A stretch of 64,000 bases of DNA, from assembly GCF_000968175.1 (NCBI RefSeq), contig NZ_FO704551.1:744001-808000 (forward strand), read 5' to 3'. A program made the position numbers and the translations under genes. Below, one piece after another: positions 1-18,820 of this stretch. The notes below the pieces were generated by a model, which did no database searches, was not told the DNA's origin, and saw nothing but the letters and a program-made list of their open reading frames with translations. The DNA is from Xenorhabdus poinarii G6. Its GTDB lineage: Bacteria; Pseudomonadota; Gammaproteobacteria; Enterobacterales; Enterobacteriaceae. Every line of letters starts with the position of its first letter. Positions within the stretch are counted from its first letter, which is position 1.

Positions 1-841
1 GATTACGCGTTAATATTTCACCGCCGCAAAAGACATGAGTTAACGCTTGGCAGTCCTGTAATAGTGGTTGATCGACCAATGCCTGCAACAGGGTTGGTAC
101 ACATTGAAGACAGGTGATCTGCTCATGCAGCAACGTTTCCGCCATCAGGTCTGGATCGCTATAGCACCCTTTCGGTGCGATTACTAACGTAACGCCCATC
201 GCCGGCGCCAGGATTTCCCACTGTGCGGCGTCAAAACTCATCGGCGTTTTCTGCAAAATACGGCTGTGTGTGCCAAAAGCAAAGCGTCTGCTGAGGTAGC
301 ACATTTGGTAGGATATATTCTGGTAGTTGACCATCACGCCTTTGGGTTTACCCGAACTGCCGGATGTGTAAATTACATAAGCCAGCCTCTCTCTATCCTT
401 GGCTTCCATGAAGTTAAACGACTCAGGCAAGTGGAATAGATAAGGAATATCATTTTCGGTTATAATAGTAACGTCATGTTCGACTAGCGCTTGCAGTTTT
501 TCTTTAAGGTGATGTTGACAAAAAATAACGTCGACCCTCGAATCCGCAATCATGTAGCGCAGCCGCTCTTCCGGATATTCAGGCGCCAGCGGCAAATAGG
601 CATAGCCGGTGGCCAAAATTCCCCAAGCGGCGGTAACTAAGCTTACGGAAGGCTCACAGAATAAACCGATGCAAACTGTGTTCTCATTAACACTCTGCTG
701 TAAACGGGAATAAATACTGAATATATGCTGGAAAAAATCTTGATAATTTAGTTCGCTGTCAGCATCCCTCACCGCAATGGATTCAGGATGAAGGCTACGT
801 TTTTGAGATAATTGTTCAAATAGTCCCACAAAATTATTCAT
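1..841 (-). CDS. NRPS-type adenylation domain protein, 3' part beyond window edge
   Basis: An open frame runs leftward from an ATG at 839-841 to position 1 without a stop, giving about 280 residues of an AMP-forming adenylation domain. Visible signatures are the phosphate-binding core motif YTSGSSGKPKGV near residue 160, LPLAPEYPEERLRYM near residue 85 and FCGGE near residue 270. The protein starts directly with the adenylation domain, with no condensation domain before it, so it is either a stand-alone A protein, a loading module or the first module of a larger NRPS; the cut edge prevents a choice. It would activate an amino or aryl acid as an acyl-adenylate; substrate not readable. It is the most downstream visible gene of the leftward cluster, separated from the HAD gene by 345 bp. 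Confidence 0.85.
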   Translation of the reverse strand, partial: MNNFVGLFEQLSQKRSLHPESIAVRDADSELNYQDFFQHIFSIYSRLQQSVNENTVCIGLFCEPSVSLVTAAWGILATGYAYLPLAPEYPEERLRYMIADSRVDVIFCQHHLKEKLQALVEHDVTIITENDIPYLFHLPESFNFMEAKDRERLAYVIYTSGSSGKPKGVMVNYQNISYQMCYLSRRFAFGTHSRILQKTPMSFDAAQWEILAPAMGVTLVIAPKGCYSDPDLMAETLLHEQITCLQCVPTLLQALVDQPLLQDCQALTHVFCGGEILTRN

Positions 842-1186
842 AATAATGCTATAAATGCCCTAGATTTATAAGGATACTGTTAGTGTTATTTTAACTATCA
901 GTAATTTAATTAAGTAATAAGATTAGTGAGTTATATTATTATTTATCACTGTCATTACTTTATTCATCCTTGTAAACTTTCGGAATTCATCCTATTTAAG
1001 AGTTAATAATTGTCAGTCAATATATGAGTGCTGAAGTTTTTTCATGCAAAATCTTTGGCTAAAAAGCCATAAATAACCATACCTTTTGGCGCTGTTTATC
1101 TATCATATTAAATGCTAATATGACGACTTTATTCCCCACTAACTTGTAGGCTGAATAAACAATGTTTCCAGAAATAAAAAGATCTT
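842..1186. other. AT-rich intergenic region upstream of the adenylation gene
   Basis: There is no convincing coding frame here. The stretch is strongly AT-rich and lies between the end of the HAD gene and the start of the adenylation gene, both leftward, so it probably carries a separate promoter for the adenylation gene. No specific promoter box or riboswitch could be recognised. Confidence 0.4.
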
Positions 1187-1879
1187 TTAACTGGTGCTAC
1201 GGAGACCTCTTAATAGACACCAATTAACTACATCGGAAAATGAACTAACGATAATGTCGGGCTTGGCCGCCGCTAATATCGTGCGATGTTGAATACCGTA
1301 ATCTACAGCTATTACCTGACAGCCAACTTGGTGTGCCATCAATATATCGTGCGTAGTGTCTCCGACCATGACCGACTCTTCAGCCACAGCCTGGTAGTGG
1401 GCTAGTATGTTATTCCCCGATTCCGGCGCTGGTTTTTTATCCTTCACCTGATCGGCGCATACAACTACATCAAACAGCCCAGCAATGCCCGATGCGATTA
1501 ATAAAGCATTAGCGCTGCGTGCGAACTTATTGGTTGTAACCGCCAGCTGAAAGCCAGACTGTTTCAGTTGAAACAATCCTGCGGCAACCCCGGGAAATAA
1601 CAGTTCGGCCGCCATAGGTAAAATTAGCGTCTGAAATTGCCGTTGATACTCCTCCACGCAGTCTGTTACCCTTTGCCCGTCCTCAGCTTGCGACAAAAGT
1701 TGCGCAAACGCCCGTTCTAATGGCAACCCAATCGTTTCTCGAATTTGTTCATCGTGCGCTGGTTCCGGCAATTTTAACTGCTGAAAAGTGGCGCGAAAGG
1801 CTGAAATAATCGCTTTCGCCGTATCAAACAAAGTACCGTCAAGGTCAAACATAATGACTCGGAGATGGGGTTTCATCAA
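1187..1879 (-). CDS. HAD-superfamily hydrolase, phosphoglycolate phosphatase-like
   Basis: 230 residues with the complete HAD catalytic set: motif I FDLDGTLFD near residue 11 (nucleophile Asp), motif II Thr in AVTTNKFARS, motif III Lys in KDKKPAPESG, and motif IV MVGDTTHDI. The helical cap between motifs I and II is the type found in Gph and pyrimidine 5'-nucleotidase relatives, so a small phosphorylated metabolite is the expected substrate. Two Met codons open the frame and either could be the start. It follows the tautomerase gene by 17 bp in the same direction, suggesting cotranscription. With a UPRTase two genes upstream, a nucleotide or sugar phosphate is a reasonable but unproven substrate. 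Confidence 0.8.
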   Translation of the reverse strand: MMKPHLRVIMFDLDGTLFDTAKAIISAFRATFQQLKLPEPAHDEQIRETIGLPLERAFAQLLSQAEDGQRVTDCVEEYQRQFQTLILPMAAELLFPGVAAGLFQLKQSGFQLAVTTNKFARSANALLIASGIAGLFDVVVCADQVKDKKPAPESGNNILAHYQAVAEESVMVGDTTHDILMAHQVGCQVIAVDYGIQHRTILAAAKPDIIVSSFSDVVNWCLLRGLRSTS

Positions 1880-1896
1880 TCCTATTTCTCTGAAGG

Positions 1897-2121
1897 TTAA
1901 TAATTTGGGATTTTAATTAAGCAGTCTTTTTTATTCTCTATTTCTGGACGATAAACCTGCTCCTGCCAATCACCAGCAGGAACCGGTTCCATCGAGATGG
2001 AAACCACGCTGGATTCGCACGACAATGCGTGCGTGACGGCTAGTGTAATTTCTTCTGCTAGACGGTTCTTAACTGTTTTCGACAATGCTGCGGGAAAATG
2101 CTGAATTTTTACATGCGGCAT
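1897..2121 (-). CDS. 4-oxalocrotonate tautomerase family protein (PptA-like)
   Basis: 74 residues beginning Met-Pro-His-Val; after Met removal Pro-1 would be the catalytic base typical of the 4-OT/PptA tautomerases. Length and the ISMEPVPAGDW segment resemble PptA (YdcE). Such enzymes are small oligomers that interconvert keto and enol tautomers. An RBS-like AGGAGA lies just before the start. Its place between a phosphoribosyltransferase gene and a phosphatase gene suggests a role in the same pathway, but the substrate cannot be inferred. Confidence 0.75.
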   Translation of the reverse strand: MPHVKIQHFPAALSKTVKNRLAEEITLAVTHALSCESSVVSISMEPVPAGDWQEQVYRPEIENKKDCLIKIPNY

Positions 2122-2145
2122 AAATATCTCCTGTCGCTGGTTAAT

Positions 2146-2796
2146 TTATCTGTGAAGGGTGCCAAAATAACGATCGCCAAAATCGCCTATTCCTGGTTTC
2201 ATAAACGCCTGTTCCGTCATTCCTTGCTCAATGGAAGAGGTCACCAGTTTAATTGTCGGGAAATGGGACAATAGACGTTCAATGCCAGCCGGCGATGTCA
2301 GTACATTGATAACATATATATTTTCCAACGCTACGTCTTGCTTCAGCAATGTTTCGATTGCCATAAGCAAAGAACCACCGGTGGCAAGCATAGGCTCAAA
2401 TAATAAGACCGCGCGTTCGGCAATATCATCGGGAAAATGGGAGTAGAAATATTTAGGCTGTTTACTGTACGGATCGCGCTGAATAAGTATTTTACCTATC
2501 GGCTGGCCAGCAAACATTCTACGGTACTCGCCCTCAAAACTTTCCCCGGCACGGATAACTGATACACCGCAAACACCGCGGACTAATCTAAGTCCAGCAT
2601 AGGTTTCGCCAATCGGCGTAAGTACATCCTGAGTTTCATACGGTAATAAATTGGCAGTATACACCAATAACTGACGAACTAACTGATCAGCATAATAGGT
2701 AAAACAAGCATTATCCGCTTGGTTGTTACGTATTTTAGTATGTAAAGACGTCAGATATTTACTCGGTGGTAATAAGTTTATGTTGGCAATATTCAT
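2146..2796 (-). CDS. Uracil phosphoribosyltransferase, eukaryote-like type
   Basis: 216 residues. The PRPP-binding loop EPMLATGGS lies near residue 130, and the uracil-site segment near the C-terminus reads PGIGDFGDRYFGT. The FGDRYFGT form is characteristic of fungal and protozoan UPRTases, whereas ordinary bacterial Upp has GDAGDRLFGT-like sequence, so this is not the housekeeping upp. RAGESFEGEYRRMFAGQPIG and DDIAERAVLL also fit the eukaryote-like family. The loop carries Glu-Pro where family members usually have Asp-Pro. Known family chemistry is uracil plus PRPP to UMP; here it may act on a related base in a specialised pathway. It lies 24 bp upstream of the tautomerase gene. Confidence 0.8.
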   Translation of the reverse strand: MNIANINLLPPSKYLTSLHTKIRNNQADNACFTYYADQLVRQLLVYTANLLPYETQDVLTPIGETYAGLRLVRGVCGVSVIRAGESFEGEYRRMFAGQPIGKILIQRDPYSKQPKYFYSHFPDDIAERAVLLFEPMLATGGSLLMAIETLLKQDVALENIYVINVLTSPAGIERLLSHFPTIKLVTSSIEQGMTEQAFMKPGIGDFGDRYFGTLHR

Positions 2797-2917
2797 TTTT
2801 TGGAATTTAATAAATTTATGGGGAATAAATCACAGCCTACTATACCTTATAGGGCTAGTAGCTAACTTATAATTATTTAAATAAAATATTGAAACTTTAA
2901 TATATCTAAGTGAAATA

Positions 2918-3331
2918 TTATTCAATAAGATTGAATTCCTTTAACATGTCTAAAACTCTTATCGATACCGTAGAGCAACGGTGACGATCCGCGTATGCGA
3001 ACTAGGAAATTTCTTCAATTTCGGCGCGTGCTTTTAGATCGCTAGTAAAATTAGCGGTAAAAAAGTGTATTTTTACAACGATACCTTTAGGTTTTTCATC
3101 GGCCTGTCCTTAAAATTCCCCCATGGAAATAACACTGTCATTAATTAAATCGACAGAAAGTTCTTCTTTTATTTCTCTTTTCAACGCAGCTTCGCCACTT
3201 TCTCTGTTTTCCCTCTTCCCTCCTGGAATATAATATATAGGCTTTTCATATGATCGTACCACAAGAGTTTATTTATTTTTTATATAAATCCAGCCTAATT
3301 TATCAATATATTTATTATTTACTTGATCAAC
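2918..3331 (-). pseudogene. Nudix hydrolase pseudogene with in-frame stops
   Basis: One leftward frame encodes a recognisable small Nudix hydrolase: LGWIYIKNK, then TLVVRSYEKPIYYIPGG, the Nudix box core REIKEEL preceded by GGKRENRESGEAALK, then KPKGIVVKIHFFTA, IEEIS and FAYADRH. It is interrupted by three stops in the same frame: TAA before TLVV, TAA after ISMGEF, and TAG where relatives have Trp (EIxWF). No normal start codon is visible after the stop of the questin-oxidase-like gene at 3335. Everything else about the fold is present, so inactivation looks recent. It sits inside the leftward cluster, between the oxidase-like and UPRTase genes. Confidence 0.8.
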
Positions 3332-3334
3332 CTT

Positions 3335-4516
3335 TTAATCTAGATTAGGAGCATCTTCAAACGATGGTGGTAACTCAGGCGTAGAGGTGAACTGATGCGC
3401 GGCAGCGCGATATAAGGTACACCGCGTGCGCAACCACAGCGTCTTCATCATATAAACCAATTTGGGATTATGCTCTTCCTCTTCCTCCACAGCGCGTGTG
3501 GTAATTAGCTGCCATTCGCGTTCCCATACAGGGTTGCGGAGGTCGTCATAATGTTCAGCATAGGCACGCTGAAGAGACTGCAATTTCTCAGGATGCGCTA
3601 AATTACCGGTAGCAAACAGCATACACTGCATCCCAACCCAATAGCAGCATAGTATGTTATGCGACTCCTGCTCCGGTAGATGCTTGGCGATTTGTTCCAT
3701 CGCCAGTAGTGAAGTTAGCAGGTGAAGCACTTGGAAATTCCCTGGTGCAGCCAGATAGATAAGAGTCACCGTCTGATAAAGCTGCAGCCATGTCTGTTCT
3801 GTGTTTTGTTGCGTCAGCCACGACGGCTTGCGATAAATTTCTTTATGTCCTTGATGCAATACACAAGCAATGCGATATTGAAGCCCAGAACGCTGAAGTT
3901 CAGGATGAATATGGGCCATAACTTCCTCGGTCGGCGTATCAATTACCGCACTCTGCCAGGCGAGCATCTCTTTCACGTTCTGATGCCAACTCTGCGCCAA
4001 ACGTAAAATAGAATCAAAAGTGGTGATCTCATTAAGAGACGGATCATCTTGGGAGCGTTGTGAATAGCAGGGAACATATGAATAGGCCATATACGCCAGC
4101 CCTTCGACGCTCATCTCTTTATGATCGGCCAATAACGCCCACCCGAGGTGAATAGTGCCATGTGTCAATGAACCGACCCAACCGTCAATCAGGTCCGGTA
4201 AGTAACGGGCTAACACTTGTTCACGGCCATATTGATCTATTTGTTGTCGGAAAAAGTCGCAATAGGCGCTGAAGCTGCTGCGCTTACCCAGCAGACTACG
4301 CCAGTTGCTAGCATTCACTTGATGTAAAGCCTTTCTGGGCGGCTCTAATCCCATGCCGTAAGGAGTCATCGCTGCGTAGCGCTGGTAGTAGAAAGCAATT
4401 TGTTTATCTGGCACGCCCAGCCCAGCTAAGGCAATAACTGCATGTTTTACATGGTTAGTCAAATGCCCATTGAACTCGATATCGTACTGCTTATCCGCTA
4501 ACAATTCATTTATCAT
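3335..4516 (-). CDS. Questin oxidase-like family protein (DUF4243)
   Basis: 393 residues. The N-terminal segment LTNHVKHAVIALAGLG, with KQIAFYYQRYAAMTPYG shortly after, and the downstream GWVGSLTHGTIHLGWALL are typical of the questin-oxidase-like/DUF4243 family. Fungal members act in aromatic polyketide pathways (Baeyer-Villiger-like ring opening of questin). Bacterial members are mostly uncharacterised. No signal peptide or membrane segment is seen. The start overlaps the end of the preceding DMT gene by 11 bp, implying translational coupling. It is the only obvious redox-type tailoring enzyme of the cluster. Confidence 0.7.
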   Translation of the reverse strand: MINELLADKQYDIEFNGHLTNHVKHAVIALAGLGVPDKQIAFYYQRYAAMTPYGMGLEPPRKALHQVNASNWRSLLGKRSSFSAYCDFFRQQIDQYGREQVLARYLPDLIDGWVGSLTHGTIHLGWALLADHKEMSVEGLAYMAYSYVPCYSQRSQDDPSLNEITTFDSILRLAQSWHQNVKEMLAWQSAVIDTPTEEVMAHIHPELQRSGLQYRIACVLHQGHKEIYRKPSWLTQQNTEQTWLQLYQTVTLIYLAAPGNFQVLHLLTSLLAMEQIAKHLPEQESHNILCCYWVGMQCMLFATGNLAHPEKLQSLQRAYAEHYDDLRNPVWEREWQLITTRAVEEEEEHNPKLVYMMKTLWLRTRCTLYRAAAHQFTSTPELPPSFEDAPNLD

Positions 4517-4949
4517 TATAATGTTTCTCGAATGTAGATATGATGATTCCTATAGTTATCAGTGCTACGCCCAGTAATTGGATCAGATGGCTGCGGCCAC
4601 CTTGACTCAGTAAGTCAAACATAACAGCGGAAAACATCTGACCGCCAATAATTAACACCGACGTATTAAGCGCTCCCATTCTGGGAAATACATAGCTACT
4701 GGTTGCCACAAAAAACGCACCGCACGCTCCGCCGAACCATGCATAAGTAGGGATATGTAACCAATCAAATTGGCTCAACTGTTGCCAGTAAAATACAGCC
4801 ACTATTAGAGTCAAAAAGAAAAAGCCTACAGTATGGTTCCATAGTGATGTTCGGAAAGCGCCGATGGCGGTACTCAATTGGCCATTTATCACCCTAGCGG
4901 AGCTAATAACCATGCCGTTTAATAATGCAATAAAGATAAGAATGTCCAA
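4506..4949 (-). CDS. DMT-family small membrane protein (DUF606/YdcZ-like), second of a pair
   Basis: 147 residues with four or five hydrophobic helices (about 3-22, 35-55, 67-87, 92-112, 122-140). The segments GGACGAFFVATSSYVFPRMG and LLGVALITIGIIIS fit the DUF606/YdcZ family, half-size relatives of EamA-type drug/metabolite transporters. These often occur as adjacent pairs that probably form a heterodimer; the partner gene is 11 bp upstream. Likely exports a product or intermediate of the cluster; the substrate is unknown. Overlaps the questin-oxidase-like gene by 11 bp. Confidence 0.75.
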   Translation of the reverse strand: MDILIFIALLNGMVISSARVINGQLSTAIGAFRTSLWNHTVGFFFLTLIVAVFYWQQLSQFDWLHIPTYAWFGGACGAFFVATSSYVFPRMGALNTSVLIIGGQMFSAVMFDLLSQGGRSHLIQLLGVALITIGIIISTFEKHYNDK

Positions 4950-4960
4950 GCTATATAACC

Positions 4961-5419
4961 CTAGAGACTATAGATGATAAGAGAGCAGCCAGAAATAATC
5001 AGAATAAAAATATAAATATCACTGCGTGACAATTTGCGCTTTGGAGAACCGAATAAACCGAAGTGATCTGAAATAAAACTAAATAATAATTGTCCGACTA
5101 AGCCAAGAGAAATTGTGCTGGATATAGGTATTCCACCGTTAATTACCATGTTAGCTAAAATAACTACCAAGGCTCCGGGTATGCCACCAAAATACATCCA
5201 TATGGGAGGCTTTTTAAATTTATTCGCGAGTTTTTTCGGTGCTTTCTTGACGAATAATTGAATAAGCAATAAAGAACATAATACACCAGTACCGTGTGCT
5301 ACCCATGAAGCGACGACAGGGGAAGTTTTTTCAGACAGTGCGCTATTAGCTTGAAACATTAAGGTAAGAAAGAAACCGCTGAGGATAGCGATTAATATAT
5401 TCTTTATATTACTAATCAA
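4961..5419 (-). CDS. DMT-family small membrane protein (DUF606/YdcZ-like), first of a pair
   Basis: 152 residues with several hydrophobic helices, including an N-terminal one (about 5-28) and a C-terminal one (about 130-151). PPIWMYFGGIPGALVVILAN matches the DUF606/YdcZ pattern. It is the first gene of the leftward operon and pairs with the following gene of the same family, as in two-subunit members of the DMT superfamily. The upstream stretch 5420-5728 is AT-rich and should contain the operon promoter, though no clear box could be assigned. Confidence 0.72.
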   Translation of the reverse strand: MISNIKNILIAILSGFFLTLMFQANSALSEKTSPVVASWVAHGTGVLCSLLLIQLFVKKAPKKLANKFKKPPIWMYFGGIPGALVVILANMVINGGIPISSTISLGLVGQLLFSFISDHFGLFGSPKRKLSRSDIYIFILIISGCSLIIYSL

Positions 5420-5728
5420 AATTATGGACCTATAAATTAAATAATAAAAGCTAACTAATTTACTTTACTATCACTGTAAGGAACAACATAAATTTGTTTA
5501 AAACTACGTCTTTTGATCTTCACAGAAACTTACTCTTTTGATTCAAGGATGTCAACAAGATATTAAAGTGATTTTTGACTGATAACAGGATGTAACGGTT
5601 AGTAGTACGATAATCCTCTTAAAGAAAATATTGTTATCCTTTGGCGCTTTTATCGATATTTGATTCCTGTGGTAAATTGGGAAGAGATTATATAGCTTTT
5701 GTAATATTAATTTATATTCGTTATCAAT
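5420..5728. other. Intergenic region between the biosynthetic-like cluster and CRISPR array 1
   Basis: AT-rich DNA without a credible gene. It must hold the promoter of the leftward DMT-led operon and is also the leader-distal flank of CRISPR array 1. No cas gene or insertion sequence is seen. Confidence 0.4.
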
Positions 5729-6183
5729 CGGTTTATCCCTATGTATATGAGGAACACTTTATTTTTAATATTATTAAACATTTTATTCCGGTTTATCCCC
5801 ATATGTATGGGGAACAGTCTTCCTGTTATCAAAATGTCTGAGTAACCTTCGGTTTATCCCCATACATATGGGGAACAGCATAGCACGATAATACTCAATC
5901 AGTGTTTGTTCGGTTTATCCCCATACATATGGGGAACAGAGCCGCCGCGCGTTTGCGTTCAGCCCGCCGCCCGGTTTATCCCCATACATATGGGGAACAG
6001 GAAACCGTCCTGAAAAAAATAGCGATAACGGACGGTTTATCCCCATACATATGGGGAACAGTGTCCGGAACAGGTAGTGCCTTACAAGGAGCACGGTTTA
6101 TCCCCATACATATGGGGAACAGGAAGTAAAAAACCACTCATAGCTGTCTTCACTCGGTTTATCCCCATACATATGGGGAACAG
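5729..6183 (-). CRISPR. CRISPR array 1, type I-E repeats, 8 repeats and 7 spacers
   Basis: 29-bp repeats start at 5729, 5789, 5850, 5911, 5972, 6033, 6094 and 6155, with 61-bp spacing (60 for the first) and 32-nt spacers (first 31). Read on the minus strand the consensus starts CTGTTCCCC, has the core CCCCATATGTATGGGG and ends GATAAACCG, the type I-E pattern. The leader lies to the right, so transcription runs leftward and the leftmost repeats are oldest. The repeat at 5729 is degenerate (CCCTATGTATATGAGG core) and the one at 5789 has an inverted core (ATATGTAT versus ATACATAT on the plus strand). No cas genes are adjacent or anywhere in the window. Confidence 0.97.
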
Positions 6184-6342
6184 ACTAATTATATCTTTAT
6201 GTTTTTTAATAACTTTTTTGATGGAAAAAATTCTACCACGTTTTTTACTTAAAAATACCATTTTTTCAAAAATAAAAAGATATGTTTTTCAATAGGTTAA
6301 AAAATACAAAACGGACGCCTTTCCAATCTACCGAAATTCCCG
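6184..6342 (-). promoter_or_regulatory. Leader of CRISPR array 1
   Basis: An AT-rich segment directly next to the newest repeat. Its reverse complement is nearly identical to the sequence before array 2 (43484-43641), including shared blocks such as GAAAAACATATCTTTTTAT and AAGTAAAAAACGTGGTAG. Conservation confined to the array-proximal side marks it as the leader, which in type I-E systems contains the pre-crRNA promoter and the integration signals for new spacers. Confidence 0.9.
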
Positions 6343-6617
6343 GCACGAAACATTTTTAATCCTTTTAATACACTCTTTATGTGCCTTTACCTAGCATTTT
6401 ATCAACGTTCAATGTTGATTTTATGTGAATGAATTAACATGCCATTCAAATTTTGGTATGCTATGTGCCCGAAGCTAGGCATAATTTTCATATTATGCGA
6501 GCAAAATCCTCTGACCTGGCACCCCTGATGATTGTTTTTGGATGACTGTTTTCAATGATCGTTACCGGGTGCAGACAGCCGGGTATATAAAATGACAATG
6601 AGAGCGAGGAGAAAGTC

Positions 6618-9215
6618 GTGCTAGAAGAATACCGTAAGCACGTAGCCGAGCGTGCAGCTCAAGGCATCGTCCCTAAGCCGTTAGACGCCACTCAAGCAGC
6701 GGCGCTGGTCGAATTACTGAAGAACCCACCTAAAGGTGAAGAAGATTTCCTGGTCGATCTACTGACTAATCGTGTTCCCCCTGGTGTCGATGAAGCCGCT
6801 TATGTTAAAGCCGGTTTTCTTGCTGCCCTTGCCAAGGGCGAAACCGTCTCCCCTTTAGTGACACAGGAAAAAGCCATTGAATTATTGGGAACCATGCAAG
6901 GTGGATATAACATCCACGCTTTAATTGATGCCCTTGATGATGAAAAACTCGCTCCGATTGCGGCAAAAGCACTTTCTCACACATTGCTGATGTTCGACAG
7001 CTTCTATGATGTAGAAGAAAAAGCGAAAGCGGGTAATGCCTATGCCAAACAGATTCTGCAATCATGGGCAGATGCAGACTGGTTCCTTGAACGTCCTGAA
7101 TTAGCAGAAAAAATTACCGTTACAGTCTTTAAGGTCACCGGTGAAACAAATACCGATGATCTTTCTCCCGCGCCTGATGCGTGGTCACGTCCAGATATTC
7201 CTCTCCATGCTTTAGCCATGCTCAAAAATGCCCGTGAAGGTATTGAACCCGATCAGGCTGGTGTCGTCGGCCCAATTCAACAAATCGAAGCCTTGAGCAA
7301 GAAAGGTTATCCATTAGCTTACGTTGGTGATGTCGTCGGTACTGGCTCATCCCGTAAATCAGCAACTAATTCTGTATTGTGGTTCATGGGAGAAGATATT
7401 CCGTTTGTGCCGAACAAACGTGGTGCCGGCGTCGTACTGGGCGGTAAAATTGCCCCCATTTTCTTTAATACAATGGAAGATGCTGGTGCTCTACCAATTG
7501 AAGTGGATGTTGCCAAATTGGAGATGGGGGATGTGATTGATATCTACCCCTATAAAGGTGAAATTCGTCATCACGAAACGAACGAATTGCTGGCAACATT
7601 TGCACTGAAAACAGGTGTACTCATTGATGAAGTACGTGCCGGCGGCCGTATTCCATTGATTATCGGTCGTGGCCTGACGGGCAAAGCGCGTGAATCATTG
7701 GGTCTGCCACACAGTGAGGTATTCCGTCAGGCAAAAGCGGTTGCGGAAAGTGATCGGGGTTTCTCGTTGGCACAGAAAATGGTTGGCCGTGCCTGTGGCA
7801 AAGCGGGTATACGACCGGGAGAATATTGTGAACCTAAGATGACTTCGGTTGGTTCTCAGGATACGACCGGGCCAATGACGCGGGATGAATTGAAAGATCT
7901 GGCGTGTCTGGGCTTCTCTGCGGATCTGGTGATGCAGTCATTTTGTCATACCGCCGCTTATCCAAAACCTGTCGATGTGACGACCCATCACACATTGCCT
8001 GATTTCATTATGAACCGGGGCGGGGTATCTCTGCGGCCGGGTGATGGCATTATCCATTCCTGGTTGAACCGGATGTTGTTGCCGGATACGGTGGGAACAG
8101 GCGGAGATTCCCATACTCGTTTCCCGATTGGTATCTCTTTCCCGGCGGGATCGGGGCTGGTGGCCTTTGCTGCTGCAACAGGCGTCATGCCACTGGATAT
8201 GCCAGAGTCCATACTAGTTCGTTTTAAAGGAAATATGCAGCCGGGTATCACTCTGCGTGATTTGGTTCATGCCATCCCTTATTATGCGATCCAGCAAGGC
8301 TTATTGACGGTTGAGAAAAAGGGTAAGAAAAATATCTTCTCGGGCCGGATCCTTGAGATTGAAGGTTTGCCAGAACTCAAAGTTGAGCAGGCATTTGAAC
8401 TGGCGGATGCATCTGCGGAACGTTCTGCGGCAGGTTGTACAATTAAGCTGGATAAAGCACCCATCATTGAATATTTGCAATCAAACATCGTCTTGCTGAA
8501 GTGGATGATTGCGGAAGGTTATGGTGATCGCCGGACATTGGAGCGCCGTATTATTGGCATGGAAAACTGGCTGAAAGATCCTCAGTTACTGGAAGCGGAT
8601 GTAGATGCCGAATATGCGGCTGTGATTGAAATTGATTTGGCTGATATTAAAGAGCCTATTTTGTGCGCGCCTAACGACCCCGATGATGCACGCTTGTTAT
8701 CTGAAGTTGCCAACAGCAAAATTGATGAAGTTTTCATCGGATCCTGCATGACGAATATTGGTCATTTCCGTGCGGCAGGTAAGTTGTTGGATCAGCATAA
8801 AGGCCAGCTGCCGACTCGCTTGTGGGTTGCTCCTCCAACTAAGATGGATGCGGCGCAATTAACGGAAGAAGGCTATTACAGTGTCTTTGGTAAAAGTGGT
8901 GCTCGCATTGAGATCCCTGGTTGCTCATTGTGCATGGGGAATCAGGCGCGTGTAGCGGATGGAGCAACCGTGGTATCCACGTCGACCCGTAACTTCCCTA
9001 ACCGTCTTGGCGCAGGCGCAAATGTTTACCTGGCATCTGCGGAATTGGCCGCAGTAGCTTCCGTGTTGGGACGGTTACCAACGCCAGAAGAGTATTTGCA
9101 GTTCATGGATAAGGTCGATGAAACCGCAACAGATACTTATCGCTACCTCAATTTTGATCAATTGAGCCAATACACGGAAAAAGCAGATGATGTGATCTTC
9201 CAAACTACCGTATAA
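6618..9215 (+). CDS. acnB: Aconitate hydratase B
   Basis: 865 residues, the usual AcnB length. It isomerises citrate to isocitrate in the TCA cycle and can act as an iron-responsive RNA-binding protein when apo. The [4Fe-4S] ligands are visible as Cys in GSCMTN near residue 709 and the CSLCMGNQ pair near residues 769-772. The N-terminal HEAT-like domain ([15 protein letters not shown]) and the swivel segment [15 protein letters not shown] follow the AcnB domain order. The GTG start is preceded by GAGCGAGGAGAAA. The 275 bp upstream, after the CRISPR leader, should contain its promoter. A hairpin terminator follows. Confidence 0.97.
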
Positions 9216-9235
9216 GAAAGTATATTGCCATGCAT

Positions 9236-9259
9236 AGGGAGGCAAATGCCTCCCTTTTT
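9236..9259 (+). terminator. Rho-independent terminator of acnB
   Basis: GGGAGGCA and TGCCTCCC arms with an AA loop are followed by a run of five T residues, 20 bp after the acnB stop. Confidence 0.85.
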
Positions 9260-9429
9260 CGTGTCCCGCGTTTTGTCTCTCTTGCTTCATGGTATTTGTT
9301 TTATAGCATTTGTCTTATCACAATTTTTCAATGGCTTTTGTATTAGTTTGTGGGGTATTTCAGCGGTGAAAGCAGCAATGTTTAAAACCCAAAGGGATCA
9401 TTTGGGATATGTAAAAATGGGGGTATGTG

Positions 9430-9801
9430 ATGGAATATGAATTTATGCAAGATATTACCGGTCAGGTAACAACATCCTTTTCCATGGATCATGAGGCTAT
9501 TGGTCATTGGTTAAACGAAGAAGTGAAAGAGGATTTGAGTATATTGGATAAAATCACGCTGGCTTTACAAGAGATTAAAGGGAGTGAACGTCAGTGGCAG
9601 CTATCGGGTCATGAATATACGCTATTGATGGACGAAAATGAGATCATGATCAGGGCGAATCAACTCCAGTTTGATACCGAGGTGATGGAAGAAGGCATGA
9701 GCTACTATGATAACGAAAGTTTAGCTTTTTGTGGTACAGACGATTTTATTGATATGTTGGCTAATTATAAAGAGTTTATTTCGCAAAAACATAAAACGTA
9801 A
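9430..9801 (+). CDS. yacL: YacL family protein (UPF0231)
   Basis: 123 residues, collinear with the small YacL protein that follows acnB in Escherichia coli. Segments such as [34 protein letters not shown] and [12 protein letters not shown] match the family. I chose the ATG at 9430 rather than the GTG one codon upstream because YacL proteins begin with a M-(D/E)-YEF pattern. Cytoplasmic, function unknown. The acnB terminator lies between, so it probably has its own promoter. Confidence 0.9.
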
Positions 9802-9904
9802 GCATTAATGTTCAATCAATGAGGGCTTTCTGCCATAATCTACATTCCATCACGTTTTTGTGTTGTCGCAGTGGTTTTCTATTCAACAATAAGGTGGGCT
9901 TTGT

Positions 9905-10777
9905 ATGAAAGAGATCAATCTGTCAAACGAGATTGATAAAGCGGCGAACTGGTTTACCAACAATCAGGATCTACTGATTCAGTATGCAGTTAATATTGTC
10001 TCTGCCATTTTGATTCTTATCGTTGGCTTAGTTGTTGCTAAGTTGGTGAATAAAGCCGTTAAGCGTGTTATGTCATTGCGTGGCATTGATGCGACCATTT
10101 CTGATTTTTTATCTGCCATTATTCGCTATGCCATCATCGCGTTTACGATTATTGCCGTTCTTGGTAAGTTGGGCGTTCAGACGGCCTCTGTTATTGCCGT
10201 CATTGGTGCTGCAGGCTTGGCGGTTGGTCTGGCATTACAAGGATCACTGTCTAATTTTGCCGCCGGGGTTCTATTGGTGGTTTTCCGCCCGTTGCGCACG
10301 GGGGAATATGTCAATATTGGTGCGGTGGAAGGCACGGTGGTACAAGTGCAGATTTTCTCGACAACGTTGCGTACCGCGGATGATCGCATCATCGTTATCC
10401 CCAACGGTAAGATTATTGCGGACAATATTATCAATACCAGTCGTGAACCTAACCGCCGTACCCAAATTATGGTTGGGGTTGCCTATAACGCGGATATTGA
10501 TGAAGTGAAAAAAGTGTTGGGAGACGTGATTAAAGAAGATAAACGCATTCAACATGAAAAAGGCGTCACTATTCGGTTGCACGAAATGGCCCCTTCATCA
10601 TTGAACTTTATTGTTCGTGTGTGGACAACTAACGGTGATGCCTGGAATGTCTATTGGGACTTGATGGAAAATTTTAAACGTGCTTTGGATAAGCACAATA
10701 TCAACATTCCATTCCCGCAAATGGATGTTTATCTGCATCAGCAAAATATGGCTTTACAGGCAAAAATAGACGAATAA
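9905..10777 (+). CDS. mscS: Small-conductance mechanosensitive channel MscS
   Basis: 290 residues, close to the 286 of E. coli MscS. Three transmembrane helices lie in the first 130 residues. The pore-lining TM3 shows the Gly/Ala-rich [20 protein letters not shown], followed by the beta-domain entry [18 protein letters not shown]. The rest forms the cytoplasmic cage. It opens under hypo-osmotic membrane tension to release solutes. RBS AAGGTGGGC precedes ATG. A strong hairpin follows at 10789-10817. Confidence 0.95.
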
Positions 10778-10788
10778 TGAAAATATCG

Positions 10789-10817
10789 TGGTGTGAGAAT
10801 GTCTCTTTCTCACACCA
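10789..10817 (+). terminator. Hairpin downstream of mscS
   Basis: Arms TGGTGTGAGA and TCTCACACCA enclose a short loop 11 bp after the mscS stop. No good T-run follows, so it may be a transcript-end stabilising hairpin rather than a classical terminator. Confidence 0.6.
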
Positions 10818-10981
10818 AATCATGACGATTTTTGTTGGTGGTGCGTTGTGGGATGGCGTTGAGGGATAAATGCAATAAGAGCAGGGTTTTTTATCTGATG
10901 GCAATACATCCCTATAGATAGTGTGCTAATGTTTCTGAAAGCACCTGACTGATGTACATTAAGTGGTATTGAGGAGGTTTT

Positions 10982-11716
10982 GTGAAACTTAAGTCACTGG
11001 TATTGGCCGCGATGATGGCGCTGGGAAGCCTGCCTTATATGTCTGTATCTGCTGCGGGTTCGTTATCTGTGCCACATATTGCTACTTCGGGTAACGCGGT
11101 CGTTAAAGCCGCACCGGATATGGCAACTTTAATGATCCACGTGAGTGAAACCGAGAAGAGCGCGGCAGAAGCAAAGAAAACCATCGATGCTCGTGTCGCG
11201 AAATATTTTGATTTTCTGAAAAATAACGGTATCGAAAAGAAAGATATTGATGCGGCGAATTTGCGCACTCAGCCAACATATCGTTATGAACAAAAAACCG
11301 GAAAATCAATGATTACGGGTTATATGGCATCACGTTCAGTTGAAGTGAAAGTGCATAAGTTAGATCAATTAGATACCTTATTGGATGGTGCTCTGAAAGC
11401 AGGGTTGAACGAAATTAACGCTGTTCAGTTTAGTGTCGATAATCCGCAACGTTACCGTGATGAAGCCAGACAAAAAGCGATAGAAAATGCGATTCAACAA
11501 GCAACGGCCTTGGCAAAAGGGTTCAACGGTAAATTAGGCCCTGTATATAGCATTAATTATCGGGCGCCTGAAGCTGTGGCTATGCCAATGAGCCGTCTGA
11601 AATACCAGTCAGCTCTGATGGCAGCGCCAAATTCTGAATCAGCACGTGAAACCTATGCACCACAGAACATTGAGTTTTCTGATCACGTTGATGCTATTTT
11701 TGAATTACAGCGCTAG
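10982..11716 (+). CDS. yggE: Periplasmic SIMPL-domain protein YggE
   Basis: 244 residues with an N-terminal signal peptide (cleavage near VSA-AG at residue 25) and the SIMPL/DUF541 domain: [22 protein letters not shown] opening, [20 protein letters not shown] and [16 protein letters not shown]. coli YggE is linked to oxidative-stress tolerance. GTG start after GAGGAGG. In E. coli it is followed by argO and argP; here its stop overlaps the end of the convergent argP gene by 4 bp and argO is absent. Confidence 0.9.
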
Positions 11717-12618
11717 TCAGTTTTATCTTCTTGACGTAACATCTGGCGTCCAAGTTTTAACAGGGCGTCAGTGACTTTTCTCATCGTTCCACTTTCTGGC
11801 GCAAAACGATGCCAGTAAAGCATACGGCGTTGGTAAAGACCCGGCGTCAGATCGATTAATTCACCGTCTTTCAATTCCTTGTCAACTTGCAAATGTGGGA
11901 TCATACAACAGGTTGAGCCCTGTTTTGCCAATTGTACAAATGCTTCGGAAGAATTCACAATGTGGCAGGGCACGCTGCCCGGCGATAAATCAAAATTCTG
12001 CTGTAAAAATGCTTGATGCATATCATCCAAATGGTCGAATGCAACAGCCGGGGCTTTCAGTAGCGCTGAACGCGTAACGCCATTCGGGAAAAAACGGTTT
12101 GCGAACCCTGGAGAGGCAACAAACAGATAATCCAGAGCGCCTAACTTATCGACCAGGCAGCTTGGCAGAGGTTGAGATTGGATACTAATCGCCCCGACAA
12201 CTTCGCCACGCCGCAAACGTTCCTGAGTCCGGGTTTCATCTTCCACCTGAATATTGAGCCGAATAGGTAAATCGGACAAGACAGGATGGAGAGCGGGTAA
12301 AAGCCATGTAGCCAGACTGTCCGCATTAACCGCAAGGGAAAGCAATAACGGGGTTTCATGACTGTTCTCATCGCCGAGCCATTGTGCCTCCAGCATTTCT
12401 ACCTGATGTAATAGCGCAAGCAGCCTTTGCCCTTGTTCTGTCGGGTGGGGAGGAACAGTGCGTACCAAAAGCGGTTGACCAAACATATTTTCTAATTGTT
12501 TGATTCTTTGGGATACGGCTGATTGGGTGATACAAAGTTTTTGCGCTGCTCGTTCGAAACCACGTTCTCTGATCACTGCATCTAATGCTTGCAATGATCG
12601 ATAGTCAGGACGTTTCAT
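11713..12618 (-). CDS. argP: LysR-family regulator ArgP
   Basis: 301 residues. The N-terminal winged HTH of the LysR family ([20 protein letters not shown], then [12 protein letters not shown]) is followed by an effector domain ([29 protein letters not shown]) typical of ArgP/IciA. In E. coli it senses arginine and lysine, activates the exporter gene argO, and regulates dnaA and nrd genes. Overlaps the convergent yggE end. Its usual partner argO is not present next to it. Confidence 0.93.
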
Positions 12619-12856
12619 TGAAAATAAGATCCTCCATGTTTGCTCTTTTTATCTGACATCGCTCAATACATAGGAAAGCCAAACGGTTTGACATCAATCA
12701 CAAAACCTCTGTGATGCAAGAACCTCAAAGCCATGATGTGGACTCAAGAGCACTATGCCATATAGCACTATGCCATATTTTTTCATGAGACGAGCCAATA
12801 TTGTTTATACTGGTCGTCAAATTTTTTCTTGTAACTGATGATAGGCTGTGATCGAT

Positions 12857-13516
12857 ATGACTCAGGATGAACTGAAAAAAGCAGTAGGTTGGTCGGCGTT
12901 GGAATATGTTAAACCCGACACCATTGTCGGTGTTGGAACTGGTTCTACGGCCGCGCATTTTATCGATGCGTTAGGAACGATTAAAAATACCATTAAGGGG
13001 GCTGTATCTAGTTCAGAGGCATCGACTGAGAAACTTAAAAGTCTTGGCATTCCGGTGTTTGACTGTAATGAGGTTGACATTTTGGATATTTATGTCGATG
13101 GCGCTGATGAAATTAATGGTCAAATGCAGATGATCAAAGGCGGTGGCGCCGCATTAACCAGAGAAAAAATCATTGCGGCGGTTGCGAAGACATTTATTTG
13201 TATTGTTGATTCGTCTAAGCAAGTCGATGTACTAGGCAAATTCCCGCTGCCCGTTGAAGTTATCCCGATGGCTCGCGCTTATGTTGCCCGTGAGTTGGTG
13301 AAATTGGGGGGGACGCCGGTTTATCGTGAAAACGTCGTGACAGACAATGGTAACGATATTCTGGATGTTCATAACCTCTCTATTGTTGATCCGATTGAGT
13401 TAGAGAATCAAATCAATGGCATCGCTGGCGTGGTAACGGTGGGGCTTTTTGCTAATCGGGGCGCTAACGTGGTGTTGGTCGGTACCGCAAATGGCGTTAA
13501 GACGCTCACTGAATAA
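12857..13516 (+). CDS. rpiA: Ribose-5-phosphate isomerase A
   Basis: 219 residues, the standard length. Interconverts ribose-5-phosphate and ribulose-5-phosphate in the pentose phosphate pathway. Conserved motifs: [15 protein letters not shown] near residue 25, [10 protein letters not shown] near residue 80, the catalytic [11 protein letters not shown] and [13 protein letters not shown] near the end. I chose the ATG at 12857 (start [12 protein letters not shown]) over the GTG three codons upstream because it matches E. coli RpiA. It is divergent from argP. Confidence 0.96.
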
Positions 13517-13525
13517 TCACAGATT

Positions 13526-13559
13526 GGGGGCAGAATATCCTGCCCTCAAAATATTTTTA
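13526..13559 (+). terminator. Terminator of rpiA
   Basis: GGGGGCAG and CTGCCCTC arms around AATATC are followed by an A/T tract rich in T, 10 bp after the rpiA stop. Confidence 0.75.
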
Positions 13560-13785
13560 TATTTTTTCAAAAAATAAATTTAGTGATATATATTGATTTT
13601 TTGTCTAAATTTTATTCAAAATCCTGTCTTTTTTCTGTAACCAATCATTTTATTTTGCATAACAACTTATTTACTGTTACTTATTCTGTAATATACGCAA
13701 TCGATTGTATTGCCGTTGCTGTTTTTTTTGTTATTTTGGTGGAATCGATAGGCGTTACAAAAGTTAATACAACTAGGGCGGGCAA

Positions 13786-15027
13786 ATGGTTAAGGTATCT
13801 TTAGAGAAGGATAAGATTAAATTTCTGCTACTGGAGGGCGTTCATCAAAACACAGTAGACAGTTTAAAAGCAGCAGGGTACAGCAATATTGAGTATCACA
13901 AAGGGGCATTAGATCCTGAAGCGTTGAAAGAAGCGATTCGTGATGCCCGATTTGTGGGAATTCGTTCCCGTACTCAGTTGACGGAAGACATTTTTGCAGC
14001 CGCAGAAAAACTGGTTGCAGTCGGATGTTTTTGTATTGGTACTAATCAGGTTGACCTGAAAGCCGCAACAAAACGTGGTATTCCTGTATTTAATGCGCCT
14101 TTTTCCAATACACGTTCAGTCGCTGAAATGGTCTTGGGGGAGTTGTTACTGCTATTACGTCGCATTCCTGAGGCGAATGCAAAAGCACATAATGGAATAT
14201 GGGATAAGCAGGCACACGGCTGCTATGAGGCACGTGGAAAAAAATTAGGCATTATCGGTTATGGTCATATCGGCACACAGCTTGGTATTTTAGCTGAAAA
14301 TATTGGCTTGAATGTCTATTTCTATGATATTGAAAATAAATTGCCACTGGGTAATGCACAGCAAGTTCGTCATTTATCTGAATTATTGAATATGAGTGAT
14401 GTGATAAGCCTGCATGTTCCTGAAACGGCTTCCACCAAGAATATGATTGGGTCGGCAGAATTAGAGTTAATGAAGCCAGGTTCAATTTTGATCAACGCAT
14501 CACGCGGTACGGTCGTCGATATTCCGGCACTCAGCGAAGCGCTGGAAGCAGGGCATCTCTCTGGGGCAGCGATTGATGTTTTTCCTCACGAACCCGCGAC
14601 AAACAGTGACCCCTTCATCTCACCATTAAGCGCGTTTGATAACGTCCTGTTGACACCACATATTGGCGGTTCAACACAAGAAGCACAGCAAAATATTGGT
14701 TATGAAGTGTCAGGTAAACTGGTTAAATACTCTGACAATGGCTCTACGTTGTCAGCCGTCAATTTCCCGGAAGTCTCACTGCCTATTCATGCCAAGGATA
14801 CGAATCGGTTGCTGCATATCCATGAAAACCGTCCAGGCATATTAACCAGTATTAACCAAGTGTTCACTGAGCAAGAAATCAATATTGATGCTCAGTACTT
14901 ACGGACTGACAGTAATATTGGTTATGTGGTGATTGATATTACGACACAAAATTCCGCTCAGGCCGAACTGGTCTTGCAAAAACTGAAAGCATTGCCAGGG
15001 ACTATTCGCGCCCGTTTGCTTTACTGA
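13786..15027 (+). CDS. serA: D-3-phosphoglycerate dehydrogenase
   Basis: 413 residues, like E. coli SerA. Catalyses the first step of serine synthesis (3-phosphoglycerate to 3-phosphohydroxypyruvate). Visible: the Rossmann motif GKKLGIIGYGHIGTQ near residue 150, catalytic Arg in NASRGTVVD, Glu/His region with LLTPHIGGSTQEAQ, and a C-terminal ACT domain (HENRPGILTSINQVF) for serine feedback. The neighbouring glycine cleavage genes belong to the same C1 network. RBS GGGCGGG precedes ATG. Confidence 0.96.
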   Translation: MVKVSLEKDKIKFLLLEGVHQNTVDSLKAAGYSNIEYHKGALDPEALKEAIRDARFVGIRSRTQLTEDIFAAAEKLVAVGCFCIGTNQVDLKAATKRGIPVFNAPFSNTRSVAEMVLGELLLLLRRIPEANAKAHNGIWDKQAHGCYEARGKKLGIIGYGHIGTQLGILAENIGLNVYFYDIENKLPLGNAQQVRHLSELLNMSDVISLHVPETASTKNMIGSAELELMKPGSILINASRGTVVDIPALSEALEAGHLSGAAIDVFPHEPATNSDPFISPLSAFDNVLLTPHIGGSTQEAQQNIGYEVSGKLVKYSDNGSTLSAVNFPEVSLPIHAKDTNRLLHIHENRPGILTSINQVFTEQEINIDAQYLRTDSNIGYVVIDITTQNSAQAELVLQKLKALPGTIRARLLY

Positions 15028-15103
15028 GATCTGATGATTGGCTGAGATAGGATGGTGTGTTAACCAGCGCAATCATTGATGACAGCAAGAGTGATTAAAC
15101 ATA

Positions 15104-15131
15104 AGGGGCTACTCAAAACGTGAGAGCCCCT
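15104..15131. terminator. Bidirectional terminator between serA and fau
   Basis: Arms AGGGGCT and AGCCCCT enclose a 14-nt loop in the convergent gap between the serA and fau 3' ends. The position fits termination of both genes, although T-runs are weak. Confidence 0.6.
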
Positions 15132-15136
15132 GTTAA

Positions 15137-15745
15137 TCAAGAAGAAGCCCCATCCCATCGCCATACTTTTTCTGGCGTCATGATTTCTGGCAGAGGGATA
15201 TCCCAACTTGCACTGGGGAGTTTCTCAACTAATTGAACATCATGGGCCAGTCCGATAGGATAAAAATTTTGTTGTTGCCATTTGGCGAGCGTTCTATCGT
15301 AGAAACCGCCACCCATTCCCAAACGTTGCCCGGTACAATCAAACGCGACCAGCGGAATAAACATCACATCCAGTTCAGACACCGGTAAAACCTGCCGGAC
15401 ATCTAATTGGGGTTCGTCTATATTTAGGCGATTCCGAATAAGAGGGGTATCGGGACCATAATGGAGAAATAGCAGGTGATACCGGCTAAAAGGATGCAAG
15501 ATCGGCAAGTAAACCTGTTTGTTTTGTTGCCAAAGTTGTTGGATCAGCGGCCGTGTATCTAATTCTCCATCAAATGAGAGATAGAGCGCAATGTTGGTCG
15601 CCGGTTTGATCTTGGGGTGAGCCAGAACCTGTTTAACGGCTTGTTGGGCAAACTGTGATTGTTGTTCAGGAGACAGGCTTTGACGTCGTTGTCGGATTTT
15701 TTTTCTAATGGATGTGCGTAAAGAATAAAAAGGATCTGATTGCAT
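15137..15745 (-). CDS. fau: 5-formyltetrahydrofolate cyclo-ligase
   Basis: 202 residues. Uses ATP to convert 5-formyl-THF to 5,10-methenyl-THF. Motifs: N-terminal RKKIRQRRQSLSPEQQ, YLSFDGELDTRPLI, and the C-terminal phosphate-binding RLGMGGGFYDRTLA. It is the ygfA/fau gene found downstream of 6S RNA in enterobacteria; here the 6S gene lies 55 bp upstream in the same direction. The ATG at 15743-15745 gives the standard start MQSDPF. Confidence 0.93.
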   Translation of the reverse strand: MQSDPFYSLRTSIRKKIRQRRQSLSPEQQSQFAQQAVKQVLAHPKIKPATNIALYLSFDGELDTRPLIQQLWQQNKQVYLPILHPFSRYHLLFLHYGPDTPLIRNRLNIDEPQLDVRQVLPVSELDVMFIPLVAFDCTGQRLGMGGGFYDRTLAKWQQQNFYPIGLAHDVQLVEKLPSASWDIPLPEIMTPEKVWRWDGASS

Positions 15746-15800
15746 GATACCTGCCTGTTGATCAATGCAGAAAAGGCTACAAAACAGATAAAATTGGGGG

Positions 15801-15982: not shown

Positions 15983-16128
15983 TTTTTGTTGCTTAGCTAC
16001 TTGAATAGGATCTAAGCAACGTTATAGGGCCTATTGTATTGAACTCAACGTAGAAAGCAACTGCTTATATTAATCTATCATCATTACTGCTTGATTTATC
16101 AACAAAAATGGGTTGATAAGTCGTATTA

Positions 16129-17401: not shown

Positions 17402-17461
17402 TTGGCGGCATTCATCCAAACAGCGGCTTGAACAACTCATCATGGATTTGCAGGAGAGGGT

Positions 17462-18787: not shown

Positions 18788-18820
18788 CTCTGTTAAAGTT
18801 AAAGTAATCAGGAAGTGATA

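Follow-up and report, generated by a model that had tools for sequence, protein, structure and literature searches.

Gene content and layout

As judged from its sequence, the leftward-reading gene group at the left end of the window (the whole stretch analyzed, 64,000 nucleotides of the Xenorhabdus poinarii G6 genome) is a complete-looking minimycin/indigoidine-type cluster, a known kind of cluster and not a new pathway. We estimate a probability of about 0.88 that the group, taken as a whole, is a horizontally acquired C-nucleoside cluster of this type. The identification is based on gene families, domain order, conserved active-site residues, and co-occurrence, and the reaction steps were taken from passages of a review (PMC8724604). 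In those passages the min cluster consists of an NRPS, a C-glycosynthase, a HAD protein, a DUF4243 protein, a UPRTase, a tautomerase, and a transporter. The list of parts found here equals this published list, which supports the minimycin-type reading. The first-pass annotation had called the genes uncharacterised and was aware of no published pathway that uses this combination; the label is corrected here to a nucleoside-antibiotic cluster. Clusters of the min type elsewhere convert glutamine and ribose phosphate into the uridine-like antibiotic minimycin, with the blue pigment indigoidine as another possible product. The features are as follows.

4961..5419, minus strand: YdcZ-type DMT half-exporter 1, probably replacing MinT (PF04657, E 6.2e-28)
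4506..4949, minus strand: YdcZ-type DMT half-exporter 2 (PF04657, E 1.5e-27)
3335..4516, minus strand: DUF4243/Questin_oxidase protein, corresponding to the COOH-terminal half of MinC (MinCC; PF14027, E 4.6e-37)
3110..3262, minus strand: relic of a Nudix hydrolase gene with an interrupted frame (PF00293, E 9.4e-6)
2146..2796, minus strand: eukaryote-type UPRTase, corresponding to MinD (PF14681, E 1.2e-60)
1897..2121, minus strand: free-standing tautomerase with Pro after Met, corresponding to the Tau domain (NCBIfam PptA model, E 8.3e-21, below cut-off)
1187..1879, minus strand: HAD phosphatase, corresponding to the NH2-terminal half of MinC (MinCN; PF13419, E 1.3e-41)
1..841, continuing left to L010:1014 (genome C1:741014), minus strand: MinA/IndC synthetase, first 280 of 1275 residues (PF00501)
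L009:16091-17014 (genome C1:740091-741014), wholly left of the window, minus strand: MinB/IndA (PF04227, E 1.3e-109)

All of the genes named by the first-pass annotation were thus recovered on the minus strand by profile matches, and several of them overlap or lie less than 30 bp apart, as it had described: the two YdcZ genes are separated by 11 bp, the second overlaps the DUF4243 gene by 11 bp, and the spacings are 24 bp between the UPRTase and tautomerase genes and 17 bp between the tautomerase and HAD genes. The exceptions are two wide gaps, one of 538 bp that includes the Nudix remnant and one of 345 bp from the HAD gene to the adenylation gene. The interval 1..5419 proposed earlier holds a real gene set but is too short on the left, given that MinA (L010:1014-4841) extends 2987 bp beyond the edge of the window and is followed by MinB (Indigoidine_A/pseudouridine-5'-phosphate glycosidase), whose gene overlaps that of the synthetase by one base.

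The cluster is located in an enlarged lpd-acnB interval and was probably acquired horizontally; G+C content showed no foreign mark on it. Prediction of promoters and terminators gave no signal (15 and 13 sites, compared with 21.7 (sd 4.0) and 10.1 (sd 3.7) in shuffles), and an Rfam search of L010 gave no match. On the left the cluster is adjoined by a BKACE-HemB cassette, which is unrelated to it and includes an additional HemB. This cassette was considered as a part of the cluster and rejected, given that five of its genes (BKACE, hydrolase, thiolase, HemB, and LuxR-type) are absent from every DUF4243 locus recovered (at least 70); the only match was a weak one to EamA (28%) in L070.

Synthetase

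The full adenylation gene encodes a 1275-aa protein with the A-Ox-T-TE architecture of indigoidine synthetases. Pfam detected the A, T, and TE domains and no condensation domain. A 425-residue insert in the A domain, over which no Pfam domain was found, matched SagB dehydrogenase weakly (TIGR03605, E 3.8e-10, below cut-off) and the NRPS oxidase BmdC (7ly5) marginally (E 0.0047). The insert is retained in all 58 aligned synthetases, as are the carrier serine (Ser959) and the TE serine (Ser1089). The ten residues that we take to be the A-domain code read DAWQFGLINK, a code presumably tied to glutamine; it is identical in 39 of the 58 sequences, and the DAWQ start is shared by 57. Passages of the literature define an indigoidine synthetase by an A domain interrupted by an oxidase domain, an active-site Tyr, and the T and TE serines. 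MinA has the inserted oxidase domain, both serines, and invariant Tyr residues, of which more than one is a candidate for the base.

These features bear on the proposal of the first-pass annotation that the genes serve an uncharacterised pathway for an acylated or aminoacylated pyrimidine. The adjacency of base-handling enzymes and an adenylation domain suggested such a product, whereas Pfam found no condensation domain, the oxidase insert and thioesterase are as in indigoidine synthetases, and the gene set is already described in passages of PMC8724604. On the model given there, the A domain loads glutamine for build-up of the ring and adds no acyl group to a base, and the UPRTase, earlier read as a biosynthetic step, serves self-protection. 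We consider this pathway very improbable and rejected it on the basis of the full-length synthetase and the published cluster. A base-like product made by way of a nucleoside phosphate, also suggested earlier, is probably correct. It had further been asked whether the adenylation gene might belong to an unrelated known NRPS cluster; the NRPS is of a known kind but not unrelated, since this kind uses these very partners.

Tailoring and base-handling proteins

K162 of MinB, a catalytic-type residue, aligns with a Lys that PDB chain 4gim shows as Ala, and at least 95% of 56 rows retain it. Relatives of MinB were found in nine other genomes of the genus, eight at 45-46% identity and one in fragments. 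The closest solved relatives of the UPRTase are 1upf and 1bd3; a second UPRTase match, 34% identical, lies elsewhere in the genome, and X. poinarii G6 is the only one of 30 genomes of the genus to have more than one such match. The tautomerase, which had no Pfam match at 0.001, matched PDB entry 1gyj. Conservation reaches at least 95% both for its Pro2 (58 rows) and for D12 and D14 of the HAD DxDGT motif (56 rows). Fusion proteins were also found: HAD with DUF4243 in P0055 and P0086, and DUF4243 with UPRTase in P0047.

Among the 30 genomes of the genus, the DUF4243 protein is present only in X. poinarii G6. It branches with Serratia, in a clade of ten rows that also includes Photobacterium and Photorhabdus (support 100/100), and it shares 43-50% identity with the proteins of Streptomyces loci. 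This distance would fit a related but different C-nucleoside, in which the split MinC, free tautomerase, or altered DUF4243 protein yields a ring other than 1,3-oxazine-2,4-dione, as would the lack of UPRTase in five other enterobacterial clusters (L068, L071, L072, L078, and L098), which shows that the family is not uniform. We regard such a product as unlikely, given that the list of parts is the same as that of the characterized cluster and that 22 diverse DUF4243 rows have 108 invariant columns in an alignment of 409. The minimycin-type reading is preferred, with minimycin itself as the presumed product.

Recurrence of the gene set

The synthetase is present in 56 of the at least 70 DUF4243 loci and absent from 14. 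Among these 56 clusters, MinB was found in 54, the tautomerase in 55, the HAD protein in 53, and the UPRTase in 49 (no match in 7). The HAD protein is fused to DUF4243 in 10 and the tautomerase to the synthetase in 16, being separate in 39. MinA, MinB, HAD, tautomerase, UPRTase, and DUF4243 occur together in 45 of the 56, and the same nine-gene order is found in Serratia; the genes do form one set, as had been supposed. The neighborhood recurs in Photorhabdus and other genomes, across several phyla; scattering of the genes in relatives would have spoken against one set, and the 56 synthetase loci gave no case of it. In a scan of 246 genomes of the family, the five that have DUF4243 all carry the oxidase domain as well, at a distance of 1.7-4.0 kb, and three of the eight with the oxidase domain lack DUF4243. 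Relatives of DUF4243 were found on 85 plasmid records, 4 from Streptomyces (41-48% identity) and 81 from Rhizobium, 11 of the latter being among the matches listed, at 22.9-23.8%.

An indigoidine-only cluster, with the nucleoside genes as unused passengers, would fit the synthetase architecture, the decayed Nudix gene, and the production of indigoidine by Photorhabdus indC after promoter exchange, as described in passages of the literature. The other genes, however, are open frames, with catalytic-type residues conserved where checked (MinB, HAD, UPRTase, and tautomerase), and the set recurs across several phyla. The synthetase alone, moreover, gives indigoidine in E. coli BAP1 (PMC12224551, in the passages concerned), which leaves selection for MinB, DUF4243, UPRTase, and the exporter unexplained. 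We therefore consider this explanation improbable and retain the C-nucleoside reading. The decayed Nudix gene and both wide gaps would be in keeping with a cluster that is partly unused, and Photorhabdus indC is silent in the laboratory according to literature passages, so that the genes can be present without product.

Nudix remnant and putative exporter

The Nudix remnant is 61% identical over 142 residues to the open gene of Serratia locus L032, which lies in the same place, and its own frame is broken by stop codons. A Nudix family specific to min clusters was not supported: 579 relatives were found at 1e-3, and their sources are diverse among the matches listed (the best 120 of 579). A UPRTase-Nudix fusion suspected from long frames in Streptomyces loci L050, L051, and L061 was rejected, given that Pfam found Nudix alone there and the genes are neighbors. 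The YdcZ pair, a putative exporter, is present in 29 of the 56 synthetase clusters, none of which has the MFS gene that 22 of the remaining 27 carry. The MFS gene of L056 had no match in L009 or in positions 1-20000 of the window. New details of these clusters are the mutual exclusion of the YdcZ pair and the MFS gene and a recurrent Nudix gene, broken here.

Proposed pathway

If the proteins of X. poinarii G6 perform the same reactions as the min proteins of the review, as is presumed, MinA/IndC would load L-glutamine, oxidize it on the carrier domain by means of the inserted oxidase domain, and release a cyclized ring. The free tautomerase would convert the ring to the form used by MinB, a relative of pseudouridine-5'-phosphate glycosidase working in synthesis, which would join ring and ribose 5-phosphate by a C-C bond. 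The DUF4243 protein would then remodel the ring, by oxidative deamination and recombination in the terms of the review's passages (PMC8724604), the HAD phosphatase would remove the 5'-phosphate, and the YdcZ pair would export the nucleoside, with the UPRTase providing self-protection through raised UMP. With the tautomerase/MinB branch idle, the rings would couple to form blue indigoidine. In relatives, the indigoidine obtained on activation of indC may be a shunt product.

An alternative exporter and a recurrent Nudix gene would extend the review's self-resistance model by two specific, testable points. A bolder reading, which we consider possible but less likely than not, is that the 'cryptic indigoidine' clusters of these insect-associated enterobacteria in truth specify antibiotic C-nucleosides, with layered self-protection beyond that model, in which a YdcZ/DMT pair replaces the MFS exporter and a Nudix enzyme destroys toxic minimycin triphosphate. 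The Nudix layer would have been lost in X. poinarii G6 and in some Photorhabdus, where self-protection would rest on the UPRTase and exporter.

Comparison with known systems

The indigoidine clusters of Streptomyces and Myxococcota have the same kind of synthetase, with both free and fused tautomerases described; the passages of PMC12224551 on them concern indigoidine and no nucleoside. MinB belongs to the family of the pseudouridine-5'-phosphate glycosidase and AlnA structures 4gij and 4ex8, and differs in being used for synthesis according to passages of PMC8724604. The minimycin (oxazinomycin) cluster min of S. hygroscopicus JCM 4712 (PMC8724604, passages) has counterparts here of its NRPS, C-glycosynthase, HAD, DUF4243, UPRTase, tautomerase, and, probably, transporter, whereas in X. 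poinarii G6 MinC is split into two genes, the tautomerase has a gene of its own, a YdcZ pair is the putative transporter, and a Nudix remnant is added. The related S. hygroscopicus ATCC 21589 locus (L056) consists of an MFS gene, an A-T-TE-Tau synthetase, MinB, HAD-DUF4243, and UPRTase, with the MFS gene in place of our YdcZ pair. According to literature passages, antiSMASH gives the name 'Minimycin/indigoidine' (high) to a Photorhabdus khanii region. Photorhabdus loci L034-L036, L038, and L045, probably the reported ind cluster, have the same genes, Nudix aside, at 47-63% identity, but with the UPRTase-Tau-HAD block upstream of the YdcZ pair and with Nudix open in two of the five; two further Photorhabdus loci, L039 (DUF4243 and a tautomerase match) and L101 (partial DUF4243), are partial. 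The loci of Serratia proteamaculans and S. quinivorans (L032 and L033) carry all nine genes in identical order at 72-87% identity, and in these the Nudix frame is open.

Genes and identity of the cluster

All of the genes named in the first-pass annotation were found, on the minus strand. The window forms part of a single-contig host genome of 3.66 Mb, in which the adenylation gene was read past the left edge, as that annotation had proposed; it continues for a further 2987 bp and encodes 1275 amino acids in total. Features of this synthetase (MinA) and of the adjacent MinB are as follows:

MinA 17–365, minus strand: A domain (Pfam)
MinA 931–995, minus strand: carrier domain (Pfam)
MinA from 1019, minus strand: thioesterase domain (Pfam)
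MinB, 307 amino acids, minus strand, 1-base overlap with the synthetase gene: Indigoidine_A (PF04227, E = 1.3e-109)

No Pfam domain was found in the long MinA insert between the A domain and the carrier and thioesterase domains; this insert matched SagB-type dehydrogenases weakly (TIGR03605, E = 3.8e-10 over 46 residues, below the cut-off) and the NRPS oxidase BmdC marginally (E = 0.0047). The solved relatives of MinB are pseudouridine-5'-phosphate glycosidases, AlnA and TM1464. PF14027, questin oxidase-like by name, is DUF4243 in the sources.

The earlier statement that no described pathway has this set of genes was mistaken, given that the part list is that of the published minimycin cluster. 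The available review text on that cluster describes minA as an NRPS with A, Ox, T, TE and Tau domains, minB as a YeiN-like C-glycosynthase, minC as a HAD phosphatase with DUF4243, minD as a UPRTase and minT as a transporter (PMC8724604). The X. poinarii cluster is thus a further example of a known cluster type, with a few informative variations.

Conservation of gene content and active sites

Of 390 DUF4243 relatives found, 120 supplied 22 query rows, headed by the protein of the window itself. Scanning one collection of named genomes with these rows gave at least 80 stretches, of which 72 were confirmed, and at least 70 distinct loci, whose gene content was scored by tblastn at 1e-4. The oxidase region of the synthetase was present in 56 of these 70 loci. 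Among the 56, MinB was detected in 54, the tautomerase in 55 (fused in 16, separate in 39), HAD in 53, UPRTase in 49, the pair of YdcZ half-exporters in 29 and Nudix in 9; synthetase, MinB, HAD, tautomerase, UPRTase and DUF4243 occurred together in 45. HAD and DUF4243 shared one frame in 10 of the 56 clusters, never together with the YdcZ pair.

Three of the 14 loci without the synthetase retained other genes: the rest of the set on a 7-kb contig (L063); HAD, the YdcZ pair and a partial DUF4243 (L100); and DUF4243 with a tautomerase match (L039). DUF4243 stood alone in the other 11, in seven cases on a contig of roughly 4–11 kb. The DUF4243-only loci on about 20 kb, L084 (the clearest), L097 (partial match), L099 (26% identical) and L101 (partial), indicate that DUF4243 also occurs outside such clusters, or in their remains. 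One DUF4243 clade comprises Chloroflexota, Nitrospinota and another bin (L067, L073, L076, L083–L085 and L094); no min genes were found nearby in these loci, of which only L084 is a long stretch, and DUF4243 possibly has a different role in this clade.

The carrier and thioesterase serines were invariant in 58 aligned synthetases (the 56 loci, the window and G016, a second Xenorhabdus genome with a synthetase). The A-domain code was DAWQFGLINK in 39 of the 58; another 18 carried close variants, and the remaining row had a gap. Also conserved were MinB Lys162, which aligned with the lysine replaced by alanine in PDB chain 4gim, HAD D12/D14 (56 rows), the UPRTase end motif (51 rows) and tautomerase Pro2 (58 rows).

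Nudix genes and proposed exporter

None of the 29 YdcZ-pair clusters matched the MFS gene of the Streptomyces hygroscopicus locus L056 (match of >150 amino acids at 1e-10), whereas 22 of the 27 clusters lacking the pair did, counting L056 itself; L053, L065, L074, L077 and L095 had neither. The exclusion is looser than it appears because MFS is a large family. The matched gene lies immediately upstream of the synthetase in eight Streptomyces, between tautomerase and DUF4243 in 12 Nocardia/Williamsia (31–36% identical) and elsewhere in L046 and L048. It was absent from window 1–20000 and from L009, a stretch of the same genome to its left. We infer that the YdcZ pair is the exporter of this cluster branch.

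A search of the 70 loci with the short Nudix remnant of the window detected the gene in 10, and Pfam confirmed all nine checked (the Serratia locus L033 lay outside this check). The ten are two Serratia, Photobacterium, two Photorhabdus, three Streptomyces, an uncultured gammaproteobacterium and an Oligoflexia bin, in which a contig end cuts the gene. In further Photorhabdus loci the match covered only 31–40 residues (L035, L036) or was absent (L034). In the min-type cluster of the uncultured gammaproteobacterium, Nudix and HAD domains share a single open frame (L065:6849–8042). Oxazinomycin is described, in the available text, as active as a triphosphate and as a 'Trojan horse' substrate of RNA polymerase (PMC6821320), so that a pyrophosphohydrolase would be sensible as a guard. 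The Nudix enzyme may accordingly guard against oxazinomycin triphosphate, but its relatives are common outside these clusters, which counts against a firm reading.

Genomic setting and origin

DUF4243 was present in one of 30 genomes of the genus. A 67-row tree placed the protein of the window with Serratia (100/100), separate from Photorhabdus. In 246 family genomes sampled from a larger group (threshold 1e-20), the oxidase domain occurred in eight and DUF4243 in five, all within the eight. The lpd–acnB gap is 20,011 bp in X. poinarii G6 and ranges from 396 to 11,408 bp among the other 27 genomes of the genus with both genes on one contig (in two others they are not). In X. poinarii this interval also contains a transposase pair and a cassette with an extra HemB:

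L009:8057–9405: transposase gene pair flanked by lpd and the HemB cassette; integrase-core and helix-turn-helix genes, resembling IS3 on visual inspection
L009:9966–15509 (genome C1:733966–739509), plus strand: six-gene HemB cassette, outside the window, on the left side of minB and divergently oriented
Window 5729–6183: CRISPR array of eight 29-base repeats, degenerate in the first two, lying between the cluster and acnB

The transposase pair is a possible agent of acquisition. G+C content (45.5% for the cluster vs 44.0% for the window) is no marker of foreign origin. Sequence similar to the CRISPR array lies at window 43643–44827 and at genome C1:1122822–1123215 and 544944–546672.

The cassette encodes, in order, BKACE, an alpha/beta hydrolase, a thiolase (its Vibrio counterpart is annotated as 3-oxoadipyl-CoA thiolase), HemB (porphobilinogen synthase), an EamA exporter and a SnoaL+LuxR-type protein. 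Two Vibrio plasmids, among the best six plasmid matches, carry all six genes in the same order at 60–82% identity. The second HemB of X. poinarii is 43% identical to that of the cassette, and 29 other genomes of the genus gave matches of only 41–44%; at 1e-140, no match was found in 369 genomes of the class except X. poinarii itself. We read the cassette as a putative route to a HemB-inhibiting 4-oxo acid, similar to succinylacetone or levulinate, which would include a resistant target copy and an exporter. A literature search, judged partly by the first titles listed, found no published account of this pathway, and the cassette is possibly more novel than the minimycin-type cluster.

Comparison with related systems

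The G016 genome contains the following locus:

L114:2493–8094: A-Ox-T-TE synthetase (1319 amino acids), separate tautomerase gene and MFS gene, with transposases nearby

Its synthetase is 40% identical to that of X. poinarii, and neither MinB nor DUF4243 had a match in G016; this locus is probably a second, indigoidine-only type in the genus. Among the titles listed in searches for minimycin or indigoidine with Xenorhabdus, or for oxazinomycin, none concerned a minimycin cluster from Xenorhabdus. The available text of a review of nematode symbionts mentions indigoidine six times and minimycin and oxazinomycin never (PMC11547657), and Photorhabdus indC is described, in the text available, as silent under laboratory conditions (PMC10983751). 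'Minimycin/indigoidine', high, is an entry in the antiSMASH table of Photorhabdus khanii, in the part of that report available (PMC12542766).

L056, from S. hygroscopicus ATCC 21589 (the published cluster is from JCM 4712), comprises an MFS gene, a 1395-amino-acid synthetase with a C-terminal tautomerase, MinB, HAD-DUF4243 and UPRTase. Every part of the published minimycin cluster, as given in the available text (PMC8724604), has a counterpart in the X. poinarii cluster, that of minT being probably the YdcZ pair.
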